From Carboxydothermus hydrogenoformans Z-2901 (GTDB lineage: Bacteria > Bacillota > Z-2901 > Carboxydothermales > Carboxydothermaceae): DNA of 64,000 nt. The notes beneath the pieces are model-generated. The model was not told the DNA's origin. It worked only from the letters and a program-made list of their open reading frames with translations, and did no database searches. Within the stretch, counting starts at the first letter, position 1; the number at the start of each line of letters is the position of its first letter. The DNA lies in the NCBI RefSeq assembly GCF_000012865.1, contig NC_007503.1, forward strand, positions 806,001 to 870,000. The letters are read 5' to 3'. Shown here piece after piece: positions 3,496 through 35,949 of the stretch. A program made the position numbers and the translations under genes.

Positions 3496-5026
3496 GTTAC
3501 AGGAACTTAACCGGAAAAGACAGGAATCCCTTTTGGGGGGCGGCGAAAAAAGGATAAAACGGCAGCACGAAGCAGGCAAACTTACAGCACGGGAAAGGAT
3601 TAACCTTTTGTTGGATCCGGGAAGTTTCGTCGAATTGGATATGTTTGTGCGGGGAGAACAGGGAGAGTTTGCCAAGAGCGACATGGAAAACTACGGGGAA
3701 GGGGTGGTAACCGGCTTTGGTACCATCAATGGGCGCACGGTTTACCTCTTTTCCCAGGATTTTACCGTTTACGGCGGATCACTGGGGGAACTCCATTCGG
3801 CCAAGATCTGTAAGGTAATGGACTTAGCCATGAAAGCGGGAGTTCCCTTTATCGGGCTTAACGACTCCGGCGGAGCCAGGATTCAGGAAGGGGTATATTC
3901 CTTGAGTGCCTACGGAAATATTTTTTACCGGAATACCCTGGCTTCGGGAGTTATCCCGCAGATTTCGGTGATTATGGGGCCGTGTGCCGGGGGAGCGGTT
4001 TATTCGCCGGCAATAACCGATTTTATTTTCATGGTTGATAAAACCAGCCAGATGTTTATTACCGGCCCCCAGGTCATTAAATCGGTTACCGGTGAAGAAG
4101 TAAGTCCCGAAGAGCTCGGCGGTGCTATGACCCATAACCACATAAGCGGCGTTGCCCATTTTGTGGGGGAAAACGAAGAAATCACCCTGAGTATGGTGCG
4201 AAAGCTTTTAGAGTACCTTCCCCAGAACAACATGGAAGAACCGCCGGTTAAGGCTCCGCTACCGCCAAAATATTCGACCGAAGAGCTCCTGGATATAGTT
4301 CCGGAAGATCCCAACCGGCAGTACGATGTCCGGGAGGTAATTTTACGCATTGTCGATGACAGCGAATTTTTTGAAGTGCATAAGTATTTTGCGGAAAATG
4401 CGGTGGTGGGTTTTGCCCGCCTATCCGGAAGGGTAGTGGGTATTGTGGCCAACCAGCCCAAGTATTTAGCGGGGACTTTGGACATCAATGCTTCCGATAA
4501 AATTGCCCGGTTTGTGCGTTTTTGCGATTGCTTTAATATTCCGCTTCTAACCTTTGTGGATGTACCGGGCTTTTTGCCGGGAATCAATCAGGAGTACGGT
4601 GGAATTATCCGGCACGGAGCCAAGATACTGTATGCTTATTCCGAAGCTACCGTTCCCAAGCTTACGGTAATCCTGCGGAAAGCTTACGGTGGGGCTTATG
4701 TGGCCATGTGCAGTCGTTCTCTGGGAGCCGATGCGGCTTTTGCCTGGCCGACCGCGGAAATCGCGGTGATGGGCCCTGACGGTGCTGCCAATATTATTTT
4801 CCGGGATGAGATCGCCCAGGCGGAAGACCCGGCCAAGGTGCGGGCGGAAAAAACGGCGATGTACCGGGAAAAGTTCTGCAATCCCTATGTCGCGGCTGCC
4901 AAAGGGATGATCGATGATGTGATTGATCCCAGGGAGACCCGGGACCGTTTGATTAAAGCCCTTCTGGCTGTAAGTACCAAGAGAGAATCAAGACCCATGA
5001 AGAAGCACGGAAATATTCCCTTTTAA
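3485..5026 (+). CDS. Acyl-CoA carboxylase carboxyltransferase (propionyl-CoA carboxylase beta / MmdA type)
   Basis: 513 residues, a crotonase-fold carboxyltransferase with the two oxyanion regions typical of PccB/Mmd[12 protein letters not shown] and [13 protein letters not shown] in the N-terminal half, DVPGFLPG and [10 protein letters not shown] in the C-terminal half. It transfers carboxyl between biotin and propionyl-CoA/methylmalonyl-CoA. The family includes ATP-dependent propionyl-CoA carboxylase, transcarboxylase 12S and the Na+-pump decarboxylase. A biotin carboxylase and a BCCP gene follow, and no membrane decarboxylase subunit is present, so a soluble ATP-linked carboxylase is favoured. 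ATG 3485 is chosen after GAGGTGG at 3471-3477; it overlaps mce by 11 bases. Confidence 0.93.
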
Positions 5027-27034: not shown

Positions 27035-27202
27035 GCTAATACCTCCTAAACTTTAGTAAACTCGAATGTCCTTGGACTAAATACCCCTCTTTTAATTAAT
27101 TCGGAAGAAAAAAATATTTTTTAAGTAAAGGTAGACTGAAATATGTGAAATGGTGCAGGGAATTGAAAAAATAAGACGAATTTATTTATCGAGGTGAAAC
27201 GT

Positions 27203-28102
27203 ATGTTTGATTTAAGTCCGGAACTCCAAAATAAACTTCGTGAATTAAACAGTTTATTAAAAAACCGCCGGGAAAATTTAAAAAACCGGGTGGCCATAAG
27301 AGAAATGCTTAAAAACCGTGGAGCTAAATTTATTAACCTTAAGAATTATGACAGCAACGAAAACCTCCTCATTACCGGAATAGACGGTTCGGTAAATTAC
27401 TACGGAGTCTACCCCTATCGCATCTTTTTTTTCCAGGCCTATGCGGCCACCCCGAAAGGCGATAAAATTATAGTAAGCGATGTCAAAGCACCTTTTTTAG
27501 AGGATAAACCGGACGATGACCCCAAAGATCGTGTGCTTCCGGCTTTAGAGCTTGAAGCTTCATTAAAGGCAATAGACCGGTTTAAGCCGGATATAATGCT
27601 TTTTGATGGGGGATTTATCCGTTACCGCCGGCACGCTCCCGAAAGGTGGGAACAGGTGGAAAAGGCCCTTTTGGAAAAGGATGTCTTGGGAATTGGAATT
27701 ATTGAAGAAGCCCAGTCTCAGGCAATTGCCAAAATCGTAACCGACCAGATAGGGGTTTACGACCGGGAAATTCTTTTTGGCCTCTTAAATCCCGGAGAGG
27801 CACTTTTCTTTGACGAAACGTTAAAAGATGGTTTCTTTACGGTTTTTGCAAGACTTAGCAGGCATCCCCAGGCTATCGCGGTGGATTTCTTAGAGAGTCA
27901 AAAAGAACGGGCGAAGATGGCGTTAGAGCTTTTATATGCACTAACGCCGGAAGATTCTCGCGGAATTCCTTTTTTCCTTGATGTCATCGATTCCAAGACT
28001 AAATTATCGAAAGAAGCGGTAGAGATACTCCTTGCTTCTTGTTTTGACCGAGAAATTTTAGAGTTATACTTACGGCCGCTTAGGGAAGAACGGTTACTTT
28101 AA
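27203..28102 (+). CDS. nurA: NurA-type 5'-3' nuclease
   Basis: 299 residues. The N-terminal part is basic and helical (about residues 1-50), followed by the NurA nuclease domain: ITGIDGSVNYYG with the first catalytic Asp, DIMLFDGGFIRYRR with the second metal-binding region, and GIIEEAQSQAIAK. NurA resects DNA ends together with HerA in archaea; HerA and Mre11/Rad50-like genes follow here in the same operon. GAGGTG (27191-27196) supports ATG 27203 over GTG 27194. Confidence 0.85.
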   Translation: MFDLSPELQNKLRELNSLLKNRRENLKNRVAIREMLKNRGAKFINLKNYDSNENLLITGIDGSVNYYGVYPYRIFFFQAYAATPKGDKIIVSDVKAPFLEDKPDDDPKDRVLPALELEASLKAIDRFKPDIMLFDGGFIRYRRHAPERWEQVEKALLEKDVLGIGIIEEAQSQAIAKIVTDQIGVYDREILFGLLNPGEALFFDETLKDGFFTVFARLSRHPQAIAVDFLESQKERAKMALELLYALTPEDSRGIPFFLDVIDSKTKLSKEAVEILLASCFDREILELYLRPLREERLL

Positions 28103-28118
28103 AAGGAGAGGATCAAAG

Positions 28119-29969
28119 GTGCGGGTTGTTGGTGTTAGCACCCAGCAGTTTGTTTATCTTGCGTCGGAGAGAAAAAAGTTTTATGTTAATGAAATTTTAG
28201 TAATCGAAGACCCGGATTTGGGAAAATTACGGGGGGTAGTCATTGAAGCTAAAGCCATAAACCGCTATCTTCCCCTGTCCTTTGAGAAAGGAACGGTCCT
28301 TGACCAAAAAGTTTTTGATAGCTTAACCAGGCTTGGCTTTAATCTTGCCGATGAAGAAGTTAATATTGCTTACGTTCGCCTCCTGGATACGGCGGCCCTT
28401 CCGGTAAAAGTTGGTTCCCCGGCCAGGGTTCCGACTTTTCCCGAAGTAGCGGACCTGTTAGTACGCCAAACACCGGATAAAGGACTGATCTTAGGGGAGA
28501 TTGCGGGAAGCGAAGCTTTAGGAACACTGCCGCCGGAATATTCTAACTTGTACTGTCTTCTTGAAAATACAGGGCCGGTAATGGGAAAAGGCGTTCCCTT
28601 TATTTTTGACTACCGCTCTATGGCTGATTACCCACATATAGGAATTTTTGGGGGTTCAGGCTCGGGTAAGTCGTTTGGATTAAGGGTCCTTTTGGAAGAA
28701 TTAATGGCCAAGAAAATTCCCTGCCTCGTTTTTGATCCCCACGGGGAGATGGAGTTTTCCGAACCCTATCCGGGAATCCCCAAAGAAATTGCCCGGGATT
28801 ACCGGGATAGATATCTTTCATTAAAAATTGGGGACGAAGTGGGGATTAGATTTTCGGAGCTTACCACTCCGGAACTGGTGAGTCTTTTAAATGCCATAAG
28901 CAGCATTAGCGAATCGATGGAAAGTGCCGTGGAAGCTTTATTTGAACCGGGAAAAGATAGTGAGGTTACCTTTGGGGAAAAAATCAAAGCATTACTGGAA
29001 GCTTTGGAAAATGAAAAATTATATAAAGGGCCCGTACCCGATTATTTGGAAGGAGAAACTTTAAAAAGACACCTGTTTGTCCGGGAAATTTATGAGAAAT
29101 ACGGCTACCGGGTAAACCAGTACCAGAGTTTAAAAGGTATTCTCTGGCGCTTTGAAAGTTTAAGAGCCAAAAATCTTTTTGCCAAATCGGTAGCGATTGC
29201 CCAGGAGGCTTTGCTTCAGCGAAAAACGGTAGTTATCCGGGGAAATTTGAGCTTACTTAAGATTTATTCTGCCTATCTTTTAAGAAAGCTGTACTATGCC
29301 CGGCGAAATTACGTGGATTTACGCACTTTCGGAGAAACCGGCGAATATTTTCCCCCGTTTTTTATCGTAACCGATGAAGCGCATAACTTTGCCCCTAAGG
29401 GAGAGAAAGAAACGCCTACCCGGAGAATATTGCGGGAAATTGCCCAGGAAGGACGAAAATACGGGGTATTCCTGACGTTAGCCACCCAGCGGCCGGCCCT
29501 TTTGGATGAAACTATTACCGCCCAGCTATCCACCAAGTTTATTTTCCGCACCGTTCGGGCTACCGATATCAGCACCATTCGGGAAGAAACGGATATTACC
29601 GGGGAAGAGGCAGCCAAACTTCCCTACCTGCCTTCGGGTTTAGCTTATATAAGCTCTGCCTGGATCGGGCGAACCGTACCGGTAAAAATTCGAGCCGCTC
29701 ACACCAAGAGTCCGTATACGGAGAATCCTTTTGATGAGTTAGTCGAAAAGACATCAGTAGCTTCGGAAAAATTACTGGCAACATTAAAAAAATTTCTCCC
29801 CATTAGAACCACTTCGCTGAACGCCCTGTTACCGTATATTGGCGATGAGTTAGGGCGGGAAATCAGTTATGATGAAATTATCGCTTTTTTAAATGACCAG
29901 GTGGAACAGGGGGTTTTCGTAAAAATTGATCACGGTCCCTTTGGTTTCGAGTATGTTTTAAAGGAGTAG
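28119..29969 (+). CDS. herA: HerA-type DNA translocase/helicase
   Basis: 616 residues. An N-terminal HAS-barrel-like segment (about 1-110) precedes a FtsK/HerA-clan ATPase: Walker A GGSGSGKS (178-185), Walker B FFIVTDEAHNFAP, and a C-terminal QEGRKYGVFLTLATQRP with the arginine-finger-type region. HerA hexamers translocate on DNA and drive NurA nuclease. It lies between nurA and mre11, matching the archaeal herA-mre11-rad50-nurA cluster. AAAGGAGAGG precedes the GTG start. Confidence 0.9.
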   Translation: MRVVGVSTQQFVYLASERKKFYVNEILVIEDPDLGKLRGVVIEAKAINRYLPLSFEKGTVLDQKVFDSLTRLGFNLADEEVNIAYVRLLDTAALPVKVGSPARVPTFPEVADLLVRQTPDKGLILGEIAGSEALGTLPPEYSNLYCLLENTGPVMGKGVPFIFDYRSMADYPHIGIFGGSGSGKSFGLRVLLEELMAKKIPCLVFDPHGEMEFSEPYPGIPKEIARDYRDRYLSLKIGDEVGIRFSELTTPELVSLLNAISSISESMESAVEALFEPGKDSEVTFGEKIKALLEALENEKLYKGPVPDYLEGETLKRHLFVREIYEKYGYRVNQYQSLKGILWRFESLRAKNLFAKSVAIAQEALLQRKTVVIRGNLSLLKIYSAYLLRKLYYARRNYVDLRTFGETGEYFPPFFIVTDEAHNFAPKGEKETPTRRILREIAQEGRKYGVFLTLATQRPALLDETITAQLSTKFIFRTVRATDISTIREETDITGEEAAKLPYLPSGLAYISSAWIGRTVPVKIRAAHTKSPYTENPFDELVEKTSVASEKLLATLKKFLPIRTTSLNALLPYIGDELGREISYDEIIAFLNDQVEQGVFVKIDHGPFGFEYVLKE

Positions 29970-29974
29970 AGAAA

Positions 29975-30970
29975 ATGCGTTTTTTATATATAACCGATAC
30001 CCATTTTCGCGGGAATTCGCCCCAAAACCGGATGGATGATTTTCCCCAAACTTTAAGAAAAAAAATGGAGGAAGTGGTACAGGTAGCCCAGGACCTTCAG
30101 GTGGAGGCCGTTTTGCACGGTGGGGATTTGTTTGAAATTCCCAATCCTGCGGTAAACGTTGTTGGTGATGTGGTAAGATTTTTAAAAGCACTGGGGAAAC
30201 CGTTTTACATTGTTCCCGGCAACCACGACCTTTTTGGCCAAAACCCGCAAACTTTAAACCGCACCATGCTGGGCTTGCTGGGTCAGGTAGGGCTTTTAAA
30301 AATTTTAGAACCGGGAGAAAAAGTTTTCTTTAAAAAAGACGGAATAAGCTTGCAGCTTACCGGGCAGGGTTATCACTTTGACCTCGATACCGAACGGGGG
30401 CGGGAAGGCTATCTGGTAAAAAATAAAGAAGCGGACCTTGCCATTCACATTGTCCACGGTATGCTTTTAGATCGGCCTTTTTTCCAGACGGTGGCGTATA
30501 CCTTAATTGATGATATTAAAGAAACCGAAGCTGATTTAACCTTAACGGGTCATGCTCATCTTGGTTTTAACGAAATCGTCGTTAACAATAAAAAATTTAT
30601 AAATCCCGGAGCATTAGTTAGAACCACGGTACTGCCGGCGGAAGTAAACCGTTGGCCGCAAATGGTCTTAATTGAAGCTGGGAAAGACGGAATTACTACT
30701 AAGTTTTTGCCCTTAAAAACAGCACTACCCGGGGAGCAGGTCTTAAATATTGAAAAGGCGACGGAAATGAAGTTACGGGAAGAACGGTTAGCCCGGATAA
30801 TCAGCGAAGTAAGATCATCCGGGGATTTCCGCAGTTTAAAGCTGGAAAATATCCTGCGGGAAATTGCCCAAAAAGAACAGCTACCGGAAGAAGTCCGGGA
30901 AGAAGCTTTAAAAAGAATAGCTCAAGCGGAAATAGAAATGGCCCGGGAGGAGGTAGACGATGTACCTTGA
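29975..30970 (+). CDS. Mre11/SbcD-like DNA repair exonuclease
   Basis: 331 residues. It contains all calcineurin-like phosphoesterase motifs in order: ITDTHFRG (DxH), HGGDLFEI (GD), VPGNHDLFG (GNHD), IVHGML and TGHAHLGFN (GHxH). The C-terminal ~80 residues are charged and helical and may be the cap or Rad50-binding part. It would be the Mn-dependent nuclease partner of the Rad50-like proteins encoded just downstream, whose start overlaps it by 11 bases. Shorter than SbcD (about 400). Confidence 0.88.
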   Translation: MRFLYITDTHFRGNSPQNRMDDFPQTLRKKMEEVVQVAQDLQVEAVLHGGDLFEIPNPAVNVVGDVVRFLKALGKPFYIVPGNHDLFGQNPQTLNRTMLGLLGQVGLLKILEPGEKVFFKKDGISLQLTGQGYHFDLDTERGREGYLVKNKEADLAIHIVHGMLLDRPFFQTVAYTLIDDIKETEADLTLTGHAHLGFNEIVVNNKKFINPGALVRTTVLPAEVNRWPQMVLIEAGKDGITTKFLPLKTALPGEQVLNIEKATEMKLREERLARIISEVRSSGDFRSLKLENILREIAQKEQLPEEVREEALKRIAQAEIEMAREEVDDVP

Positions 30971-32399
30971 AAAATTAATTCTGGTAAATTTTCAGTCCCA
31001 TAAATATTCGGAATTTAATTTTGCACCGGGCTTAAATGTCATCGTTGGAGAATCGGACCGCGGGAAAACGGCGGTAATCCGGGCGCTGCGCTGGCTTTTT
31101 TACAACGAACCCAAAGGGAGCGAGTTTATCCGGGTAGGAGAAAGGGAAGCAAGGGTGACCGCCCATTTTTCTAACGGCTTAATTGTTTCCCGGGAAAGGA
31201 GCGACCGGAAAAACCGCTATGTTTTAATAAAACCCGGGGAAGCACCGGTAGTTTTCGAAAAGTTTGGTCAGGAGGTACCACCGGAAATTAGCGAAGTTTT
31301 GGGAGTGCAAAAAATCCGCCTGGATAAAGATTGGGAAGTAGCTTTGAATTTAAGTACCCAGTTAGAACCGCCTTTTTTACTTTTCGAATCGGCCACCCGT
31401 AAGGCCAAAGCTATCGGGCAGTTTCAAGGGGTGCATCTTTTGGATTACGCGGCGAAAAACGTATCCCGGGATATCCGGAACATCGATGAAGAGATACGTT
31501 ATAAAAATACTGAAATTGCCGCATTAAAAGAAAAACTTGAGGAGTTTGCGGATTTGCCGCACCTTTCCGCAAGATTAAATAACTTAAAAACCAGAAAATT
31601 TATTGCCCAAAGTGTTATTGAACGCTTGAATAACTTAACCGCCCTTCGGGAAAATCTGGAACAGGTAAGGCAGAAAATTCAAGAAAATAGAGATATAGTT
31701 AAAAAATTTGGGGTGGTCTCGGTAGAAAAATTTTGGAAAATCGAAGCTTTGTATAAACGTTATCAGGAACTTTTAAAGTTAAAGGAAAGTTATACGGGAA
31801 TTCTACAAAAGAAAAGAGAAGCTCTGGAAATTCTAAACCACACCACAGCGCTACCCAGGGCGAAAGAGTATTTAGAGGAAGCTATGGATACTTACTTTAA
31901 GCTAAAAACTTTACAGCAATTGGCGGAAAAACGGCAAAAGATTAGCGAACAGAAAAGAAAACTTCTGTATATAATCAGTATCTTAACTCCGGTGGAAGTT
32001 ACCGCAAGGAAATACCAGGAGATATTGCCCGACTGCAAAAAACAGCAGGAGTTACTTGGTAAATACCAGGAGTTACAGAAACTTGGCAGGCATAAAACTT
32101 ATTACGCGGGAATTATTTACAAATACCGGAAAATACCGGAATTGGCCCAAACTTTAAAAAATCTTGAAGAAAAATTAAAAAGGTATGAACAGTTAACGGT
32201 TCTCTTTCATAACCTTTCGGGGATACACCGGAGGAAAAAAGAGCAGGAAAGGGAACTTGAGAGAATTAAGCAGGAGGTAGTTAGCCTGCAAGATCAGTAT
32301 AGAGAGGCGCTCCTGCAGGCCGGACGCTGCCCGACCTGTAATACACCTCTGGATGAAATAACCGTGCAAAAGATAATCTTTGGGGAGGTAGTGCGATGA
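30960..32399 (+). CDS. Rad50/SbcC-like protein, N-terminal ATPase half ending in the zinc hook
   Basis: 479 residues. It opens MYLEKLILVNFQSHKY with the SMC/Rad50 N-terminal strand, has Walker A GESDRGKT (30-37), then a long coiled coil from about residue 165, and a CxxC zinc hook (CPTC, Cys457 and Cys460) only 20 residues from its end. A usual Rad50 would return through a second coil to Walker B in the same chain; here that half is on the next two genes. GGGGAGG (32383-32389) and an ATGA overlap begin the next gene. Confidence 0.82.
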   Translation: MYLEKLILVNFQSHKYSEFNFAPGLNVIVGESDRGKTAVIRALRWLFYNEPKGSEFIRVGEREARVTAHFSNGLIVSRERSDRKNRYVLIKPGEAPVVFEKFGQEVPPEISEVLGVQKIRLDKDWEVALNLSTQLEPPFLLFESATRKAKAIGQFQGVHLLDYAAKNVSRDIRNIDEEIRYKNTEIAALKEKLEEFADLPHLSARLNNLKTRKFIAQSVIERLNNLTALRENLEQVRQKIQENRDIVKKFGVVSVEKFWKIEALYKRYQELLKLKESYTGILQKKREALEILNHTTALPRAKEYLEEAMDTYFKLKTLQQLAEKRQKISEQKRKLLYIISILTPVEVTARKYQEILPDCKKQQELLGKYQELQKLGRHKTYYAGIIYKYRKIPELAQTLKNLEEKLKRYEQLTVLFHNLSGIHRRKKEQERELERIKQEVVSLQDQYREALLQAGRCPTCNTPLDEITVQKIIFGEVVR

Positions 32400-32659
32400 A
32401 TTTTGAAGAAAAGCTCAATCAATTAAAAAAGGGAATAGACACAGCCTTAAACCATAAAAACCGGGCGGAAGCCCTTTTAATGCACGTTCAGGAACAGGAA
32501 AAAGAACTCTTGCGGCAAATTGAAGAACTCGGGGTTGAGCCGGACAAATTGGAGGAAGAAATCAAGCGCCTGGAAGAAGAGCTGACCCGGCAAATTGCTG
32601 AAATGGAACGGGAAATTCCCTGGGACTTAATTGAAAAGTTAGAGGCGAAGGCCAAATGA
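32396..32659 (+). CDS. Short coiled-coil protein, middle part of a split Rad50
   Basis: 87 residues, almost entirely Glu/Lys/Leu heptads (EEKLNQLKKGIDTAL... EEIKRLEEELTRQIAEME), with no catalytic motif. It is joined to both neighbours by ATGA overlaps and has its own ribosome site. Its place in order matches the returning coil of Rad50, so it probably assembles with the flanking halves. I know no named family for it; the Rad50 role is inference from context. Confidence 0.72.
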   Translation: MNFEEKLNQLKKGIDTALNHKNRAEALLMHVQEQEKELLRQIEELGVEPDKLEEEIKRLEEELTRQIAEMEREIPWDLIEKLEAKAK

Positions 32660-33309
32660 GAGAAAAACTTTTACAGTTAGAGGAAGCGTTAAATCAATTA
32701 GAACAGTATTATCTTATTCGGAAGGGTCAAAAGGAGCAAATAGAAAAAGAACTTTTGGAAAAAGAAGAGAAGTTAAAAGAGCTTACCGCGGAGCGGGATA
32801 AACTCGAAAAAACCCGTTATCTCTTACTGGTGGCCGGGCAATACGCCCGGGAACAGGCGAAAAAATATCTGGAAGATATTGCTACAAGCACTCTGCAGTA
32901 CGTGTTTGGCCCGGAAATAAGCCTGGAAATAGAACTTTCCGAGCGGGCCGGAGCCAATACTGCCGAGTTTTTTGTGGTATCCGATTACGGTAGCTTAAAA
33001 GTAAAAAACCGCCCGGAAGATGCCCGGGGCGGCGGAGTGGTGGACATCCTGTCCTTAGCTTTAAGAATATTTTTATTAAATGCCGTTGAACCAAAAATTA
33101 AAGGTCCCCTGCTTTTAGATGAACCGGGAAAACACGTATCGGAAGAGTTTGTAGGTTCTCTTGCCCTGTTTTTAAAAGAAACATCCCGCCATTTTAACCG
33201 GCAGGTAATAATGGTTACGCACAATCAAAACCTGGCGGGAATTGCCGATAAAGCGTTTTTAGTGGAGTTAAAAGAAGGGGTTTCGGAAGTAAGGGAGTTA
33301 AACCTTTAG
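32656..33309 (+). CDS. Rad50/SbcC-like protein, C-terminal ATPase half
   Basis: 217 residues. A coiled coil (about 1-80) leads to the ABC-ATPase C-lobe: a glycine-rich signature-like ARGGGVVDILSLALR, Walker B GPLLLDEPGKHVS and the H-loop VIMVTHNQ. The signature departs from LSGGE and the D-loop is GKHVS rather than SALD, so it is a divergent Rad50 type. Together with the 30960 gene it would complete one ATPase head. Its stop overlaps the convergent GGDEF gene by 12 bases. Confidence 0.8.
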   Translation: MREKLLQLEEALNQLEQYYLIRKGQKEQIEKELLEKEEKLKELTAERDKLEKTRYLLLVAGQYAREQAKKYLEDIATSTLQYVFGPEISLEIELSERAGANTAEFFVVSDYGSLKVKNRPEDARGGGVVDILSLALRIFLLNAVEPKIKGPLLLDEPGKHVSEEFVGSLALFLKETSRHFNRQVIMVTHNQNLAGIADKAFLVELKEGVSEVRELNL

Positions 33310-35391: not shown

Positions 35392-35949
35392 ATGTTTGCT
35401 CGCTTTATCGACCAAAAAATTGATTATGACGGATCTCAACTTCGACCTCATTTTATCTACGAAAATTTTGGTTTAATTGGCGATGCGATAATTGCCTTTC
35501 GCGGTAAGGCCGAAGTTTCGGATCACCTGGTGGATTTAGAGGATAAAAAGGAAAACGCTTTTATTTACAGTGAAGACATGCTTCATTTTCTCGTTGAACA
35601 TTTTGACCAGGATTTGGAAAAGGCGGTTTTAAGACAGCGGCTTTTGGTGGCCATCATTAAAGAAACTCTGGAAGCTTTAATCGATAAACCAATTGTCCGG
35701 ATGGGCGATGACCTTTATATTGATGACCGGAAACTTTCCGTATCGATTGCTACCAAGTCCCTAGTTTCGACTTTAATTCATACCGGCATAAACGTAAAAA
35801 GCGATAATGCACCGGTGGCGGCAATTGGTCTTGCGGATTTAGGACTGGAAAGCAGGGTTGAATATCTTGGACGCTTAATTGTTCAGCGCTATGGCATGGA
35901 AATGGAAGCGATAAATTTGGCAAAGGCTAAGGTAAGAGGAGTTTTTTAA
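35392..35949 (+). CDS. DUF366 family protein in the preQ0 operon
   Basis: 185 residues, a DUF366 (COG2029) protein. DYDGSQLRPHFIYENFGL and KSDNAPVAAIGL are recognisable. DUF366 genes occur in archaea and bacteria next to queuosine/archaeosine genes, but the function is not settled to my knowledge. It sits exactly between queC and queE with no gap, so a role in the pathway or in use of preQ0 is likely. No membrane or signal segment is seen. Confidence 0.82.
   Translation: MFARFIDQKIDYDGSQLRPHFIYENFGLIGDAIIAFRGKAEVSDHLVDLEDKKENAFIYSEDMLHFLVEHFDQDLEKAVLRQRLLVAIIKETLEALIDKPIVRMGDDLYIDDRKLSVSIATKSLVSTLIHTGINVKSDNAPVAAIGLADLGLESRVEYLGRLIVQRYGMEMEAINLAKAKVRGVF

Follow-up and report, generated by a model that had tools for sequence, protein, structure and literature searches.

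In Rad50 and the SMC ATPases, both head lobes and both strands of the coil are taken to be necessary in a single chain. A locus of Carboxydothermus hydrogenoformans Z-2901 raises the question of whether a Rad50-like ATPase can be made of separate polypeptides, and of how its head and arm would then be formed. In this study, a window of 64,000 nucleotides of the complete 2,401,520-bp chromosome was analyzed. In this window, a nurA-herA-mre11 operon closes with three overlapping genes, here called N, Mid, and C.

All genes of the operon are on the plus strand. The first two are a NurA nuclease (27194–28102; Pfam NurA, E 2e-34), in a gene order common to many relatives, and a HerA-type hexameric ATPase (28119–29969; Pfam HerA central domain, E 3e-20, and NCBIfam HerA). 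They are followed by an Mre11/SbcD-like nuclease (29975–30970) with the motifs DTH, GGD, GNHD, and GHAH, which matched Pfam Metallophos (E 6e-12) and Mre11 in the PDB (E 4e-6). The N chain (30960–32399; 479 aa; phrog_16465, E 3e-77) comprises Rad50 lobe I, a coil, and a zinc hook. Its translation contains the Walker A motif GESDRGKT (31047–31070), in which G30, G35, and K36 were invariant among 38 N chains, and the hook motif CPTC (residues 457–460; 32328–32339), which is 19 residues short of the C-terminal end. Mid (32396–32659; phrog_18563) is an 87-aa helical protein with a conserved GVxPE turn. The C chain (32656–33309; 217 aa; phrog_15167, E 2e-58) consists of a short coil and Rad50 lobe II. 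It contains an altered signature motif, ARGGGVVD (residues 123–130; 33022–33045); the Walker B motif LLLDEP with an altered D-loop, GKHVSEE (33109–33147; LLLDEPGKHVSEE from residue 152); and the H-loop histidine of MVTHN (33220–33222), which is H189 and was invariant in alignment A3. The four functions HerA, NurA, Mre11, and Rad50 thus lie in one operon (27194–33309), as they do in many relatives; other relatives have no nurA-herA nearby. At 35392–35949, the window also encodes a DUF366 protein (E 1.5e-71) within a queuosine-type cluster with a QueC neighbor and a radical SAM protein.

The N/Mid and Mid/C junctions are each a 4-nt ATGA overlap between different frames. The original prediction described both as clean overlaps with ribosome sites. 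This was correct for the overlaps and for the ribosome site of Mid (GGGGAGGT, 32382–32389), which is strong and 6 nt upstream of the ATG; the ribosome site of C is only weak (GAGG).

The three-chain arrangement is widespread and is not confined to the Carboxydothermus genome. Loci with N, Mid, and C numbered 62 (about 57 without duplicates) and occurred in many families of the phylum, on megaplasmids, and in one Bacillus phage. When viral contigs were searched by profile, 41 additional loci were recovered, and all three chains were present in 31 of them. Among the other ten, six contained Mid and C, and their N either lay beyond the retrieved region or was not found; a weaker Mid-like ORF was present in three, and one was a fusion (L165). 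Chains from chromosomes, plasmids, and viruses were intermixed in a tree built from 98 C chains, and chromosomal loci with the phage gene order were nested among viruses. From this mixing it is inferred that the set travels with mobile elements. A search centered on Streptococcus proved to cover this phylum once more and yielded nothing further. Candidates L008–L039 of the genome scan were dropped as ordinary ABC transporter ATPases. Three genomes (G108, G294, and G071) have a second, divergent three-chain copy beside the main set (L134, L135, and L136, respectively). In L111, N is split into two ORFs of 109 and 280 aa, with Mid and C intact. A lone C-like chain with an SGGGAVD signature was found near a contig edge (L137, 1905–2522, minus strand) and may be of a further split family.

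The odd architecture, and nothing else, would suggest that the split arose from an error in sequencing or from decay of an SbcC gene. This explanation is already refuted and retains practically no probability. The three ORFs recur in two further Carboxydothermus assemblies, and about 57 loci over many families keep N-Mid-C, so the split is no sequencing artefact; the cut just after the zinc hook, as originally predicted, is found in these relatives too. Identity to a Carboxydothermus congener was 95% for Mid, 85% for C, and 70% for N, Mid being the best conserved of the three within the genus. The C chain of C. islandicus, the nearest named relative in the genome scan, was 98% identical. Within Carboxydothermus, Mid had a dN/dS of 0.017 and C one of 0.043, indicating strong purifying selection. 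This selection, the intact genes in congeners and distant families, and the carriage of the set by dozens of phages are all against decay, which the original prediction had also excluded. Fused relatives together with a sequencing error had been named as one result that would overturn it. Fused relatives were found, but they are coil-less (L094–L096) or join N to a Mid-like stretch (L165) and therefore give no hint of a sequencing error here. The 4-base overlaps of the window could also suggest that programmed frameshifting or read-through yields a single polypeptide from the three genes. For the family this is likewise already refuted, and the remaining chance is very small. The junction geometry varies freely among loci; in a congener (L065), the overlap is replaced by a spacer of 15 nt that contains a separate ribosome site. 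Whole genes interrupt the series. N and Mid are separated by an AP2/HNH gene (AP2-domain, homing endonuclease-like; 4017–4589) in phage vB_BboS-125 (L055) and by Mre11 plus one further gene in L179–L182, and L131, L134, and L154 have ORFs separating Mid from C. The chains of Microbacterium phage Magritte (L056, L057, and L212) are scattered, with N (gp155) at 93.8 kb, Mid (gp245) at 127.2 kb, and C (gp2) at 0.3 kb. The start signals of Mid and C match those of N in strength, with ribosome-site matches of at least 5 nt at 78% of Mid, 72% of C, and 79% of N starts, compared with 23% of random internal start codons. N, Mid, and C are three separately started, conserved genes. An ORF of 218–232 aa between Mre11 and Mid in L179–L183 resembled a TOPRIM/primase fragment by eye.

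The relationship of N and C to the Rad50 head was investigated by profile comparison. Lobe I of N matched NCBIfam Rad50 (E 8e-17, under the family cut-off) and Rad50 in the PDB (E 2e-5). A profile of 37 C chains, covering lobe II with Walker B and the H-loop, matched archaeal Rad50 structures (E 1e-13). At the level of sequence profiles, it is established that N and C are homologous to Rad50 lobes I and II, respectively. The signature LSGGE of Rad50 is replaced by (A)RGGGVV, and the Ser position was Gly in all 37 C chains. The C chains thus fail the LSGG(E/Q) test, which 20 of 20 SbcC proteins of the phylum pass. In most C chains, VS replaces the Leu-Asp of the D-loop, where Rad50 has LDEE following its LDEP(T) Walker B. 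The departure of both motifs from classical Rad50, predicted from the single locus, is therefore family-wide (alignment A3). The two changes could mean a different ATP cycle.

The three-dimensional structure was predicted with AlphaFold by proxy, using locus L143, whose three genes are naturally in one frame. They were modelled as a single chain with the stops read as Gly, and such a chain forces the pieces together. The mean confidence of the model was 82.6, and both head lobes were mostly at 87–97. When N was modelled alone, confidence was 53–72 at residues 21–40 and 121–160, and the strand before the P-loop was not formed. With C in the chain, these parts rose to 87–97 and the strand appeared. 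Among solved structures, the best match of the proxy was Chaetomium Rad50 (E 4e-21), and the methanogen and Pyrococcus Rad50 heads matched with a TM of about 0.7 of the target. Since N alone loses confidence and the proxy matches Rad50 heads, the modelling suggests that C most likely completes the ATPase lobe of N. The three-chain head of the original prediction is refined in one respect: the chains are separate, but the head consists of N and C, and Mid is outside it.

The arm was examined by comparing strand lengths. The zinc hook CPxC was present in all 49 N chains of alignment A1, 13–32 aa from the C-terminal end, and its cysteines were missing only in Magritte; Pfam Rad50_zn_hook was matched by 11 of 38 N chains. 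The N strand from coil root to hook was 245–351 residues long (mean 281). The total after the hook, composed of the N tail, Mid, and the C coil, was 147–187 residues (mean 166). The two lengths were not correlated across 58 loci (r = −0.26). For 20 full-length SbcC proteins of the phylum, measured in the same way, the strands matched, with a mean difference of 13 residues and r = 0.90. The three-chain system fails the test of matched antiparallel strands, which rules out an arm of the usual two-strand Rad50 type. It is inferred that the N coil folds back on itself or pairs with another molecule. The distances from Walker A to the hook fell into classes near 325, 372–385, 425–432, and 475–486, a step of roughly 45–58 residues. 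No compensating change in Mid or C accompanied these steps of N.

Mid is predicted to be a helix-turn-helix whose turn carries the conserved GVxPE. In three loci of one family of the phylum (L094, 4764–6818; L095, 3152–5254; L096, 3083–5170), Mre11 and Rad50 are fused into single chains of 684–700 aa. These chains represent a natural coil-less Rad50 head; they have no coil, hook, or Mid, and Mid is missing genome-wide. The joint absence of coil, hook, and Mid indicates that Mid is tied to the coil. Dependence of Mid on the zinc cysteines was also considered, and it was ruled out by Magritte, which keeps Mid although its N chain has lost the cysteines; Mid is thus tied to the coil, not to zinc. 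Mid is better conserved than an ordinary coil, and it is possible that it forms a subunit in its own right and is not simply a severed part of the return strand. Structural matches of Mid in the PDB were to coiled coils in general and were uninformative. The location of Mid is inferred and has not been demonstrated.

To determine the relation to SbcC, 398 genomes of the phylum were compared. The C chain was found in 65, full-length SbcC in 165, and both in only 2, against 27 expected (Fisher p 3e-14, uncorrected for phylogeny). The two genomes with both have the phage-like order N-Mid-C-Mre11. In the window genome, the best match to SbcC (TIGR00618) had E 2e-5, was away from the locus, and did not meet the curated cut-off. 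No genome of the phylum reaches this cut-off, so only full-length SbcC matches are informative. AddA is present in the window genome, and SbcC is absent. Because the C chain and SbcC exclude each other, the three-chain complex is inferred to fill the role of SbcCD/Mre11-Rad50, in many cases together with HerA-NurA; this activity has not been shown.

Two other explanations concern the role of the parts and of the whole. N and C could form the Rad50 head while Mid stays outside the arm as an operon-linked partner or regulator, perhaps one that serves as an adaptor for Mre11, HerA, or DNA. Mid is about twice as conserved as the coils, with a pairwise identity of 0.38 versus 0.18 for the N coil and 0.23 for the C coil, and it is too short to make up for the missing length of the return strand. 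Furthermore, AlphaFold gave no gain in confidence for N, including its hook-proximal helix, when Mid was present, and the binding place of Mid was not located (model contacts were unchecked). However, Mid always accompanies a coil-bearing N and is lost together with the coil, its gene is directly behind the hook gene in most loci, and in the viral Mre11-N fusion L165 (1573–3888; C separate), the hook is followed in the same chain by a Mid-like stretch. An outside partner is thus unlikely, although it still deserves consideration. Anti-phage defence of a Lamassu- or HerA-nuclease-like kind, rather than repair, is considerably less probable. It is suggested by weak PADLOC matches of N (E 7e-14) and C (E 3e-9) to LmuB and of HerA to defence HerA models. 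However, the PADLOC matches are only at superfamily level, and a full-length LmuB match was not found with PADLOC, which gave partial superfamily matches only. The phages carry the set themselves, the set replaces SbcC in chromosomes, and its partner is an Mre11-type nuclease, all of which are against defence.

Compared with archaeal and eukaryotic Rad50 of the Mre11-Rad50 complex, the system shares the sequence and predicted fold of lobes I and II, Walker A and B, the H-loop, the CPxC hook, and an adjoining Mre11 gene; nurA-herA linkage likewise occurs in thermophilic archaea. It differs in having three polypeptides, Gly for Ser and Val for Glu in the signature, VS for LD in the D-loop, and unmatched arm strands. 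With bacterial SbcC/SbcD it shares the Mre11/SbcD-type partner and, as inferred from mutual exclusion, the role. SbcC, unlike the three-chain system, is a single chain of about 1,000–1,200 aa that has LSGG(E/Q) and whose two strands match in length. Canonical Rad50/SbcC has its lobes and coil in one polypeptide, a test that the system fails. It is therefore a homolog that is inferred to work like Rad50 and misses several defining features.

The previously reported Mre11/Rad50 fusions of Anaerostipes and Bacillus phage 0305phi8-36 (protein A7KV18) were without one NTPase segment (Yoshida et al. 2011, PMC3175470). The Mre11-N fusions of plasmids L058, L059, and L063 and of phage L154 are of the same kind. 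L154 is phage 0305phi8-36 itself; its N is 769 aa, like A7KV18, and the Rad50 half missing in 2011 is a separate downstream gene after Mid and another ORF. That study met half of the system, with the split unrecognized. PHROG families 16465, 18563, and 15167 are separate phage families that match N, Mid, and C, respectively (18563 was matched by 40 of 42 Mid chains). They are labelled exonuclease, unknown, and ATPase and are not joined together as one Rad50. No description of a split Rad50/SbcC was found in the open-licence literature. The novelty claimed for the architecture by the original prediction is consistent with this.

Taken together, the three genes probably encode one Rad50-like ATPase of separate subunits that works with Mre11 and often with HerA-NurA, although no biochemical or expression data are available. 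N would provide lobe I with Walker A, the long coil, and the zinc hook. C would provide lobe II with the signature, Walker B, D-loop, and H-loop, together with a short root coil. Mid, as a conserved helical hairpin, would most likely pack against the coil of N and take the place of the return strand that normally follows the hook, its binding being inferred. On DNA, two ATP molecules would be held between a pair of N:C heads, with stoichiometry and activity also inferred. The heads may then drive Mre11 and pass DNA ends to HerA-NurA for resection, replacing SbcCD; this step is an inference as well. A different arm plan is possible, but it can be proposed only tentatively. The N coil would be self-folded or paired with that of a partner protomer, in modules of about 45–58 residues; an exchangeable Mid would latch or close the arm or ring; and the head halves would come from different polypeptides. 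If this plan is true, subunit exchange could control ring opening and assembly of the ATP site.

A natural and common three-chain Rad50 with unmatched strands, together with its coil-less fused relatives, offers ready experiments on how the arm and hook relay ATP-driven changes. A likely function can also be assigned to three families of phage proteins that had carried no label or only a loose one. For the many Firmicutes without SbcC, the results suggest a route for DNA-end processing.
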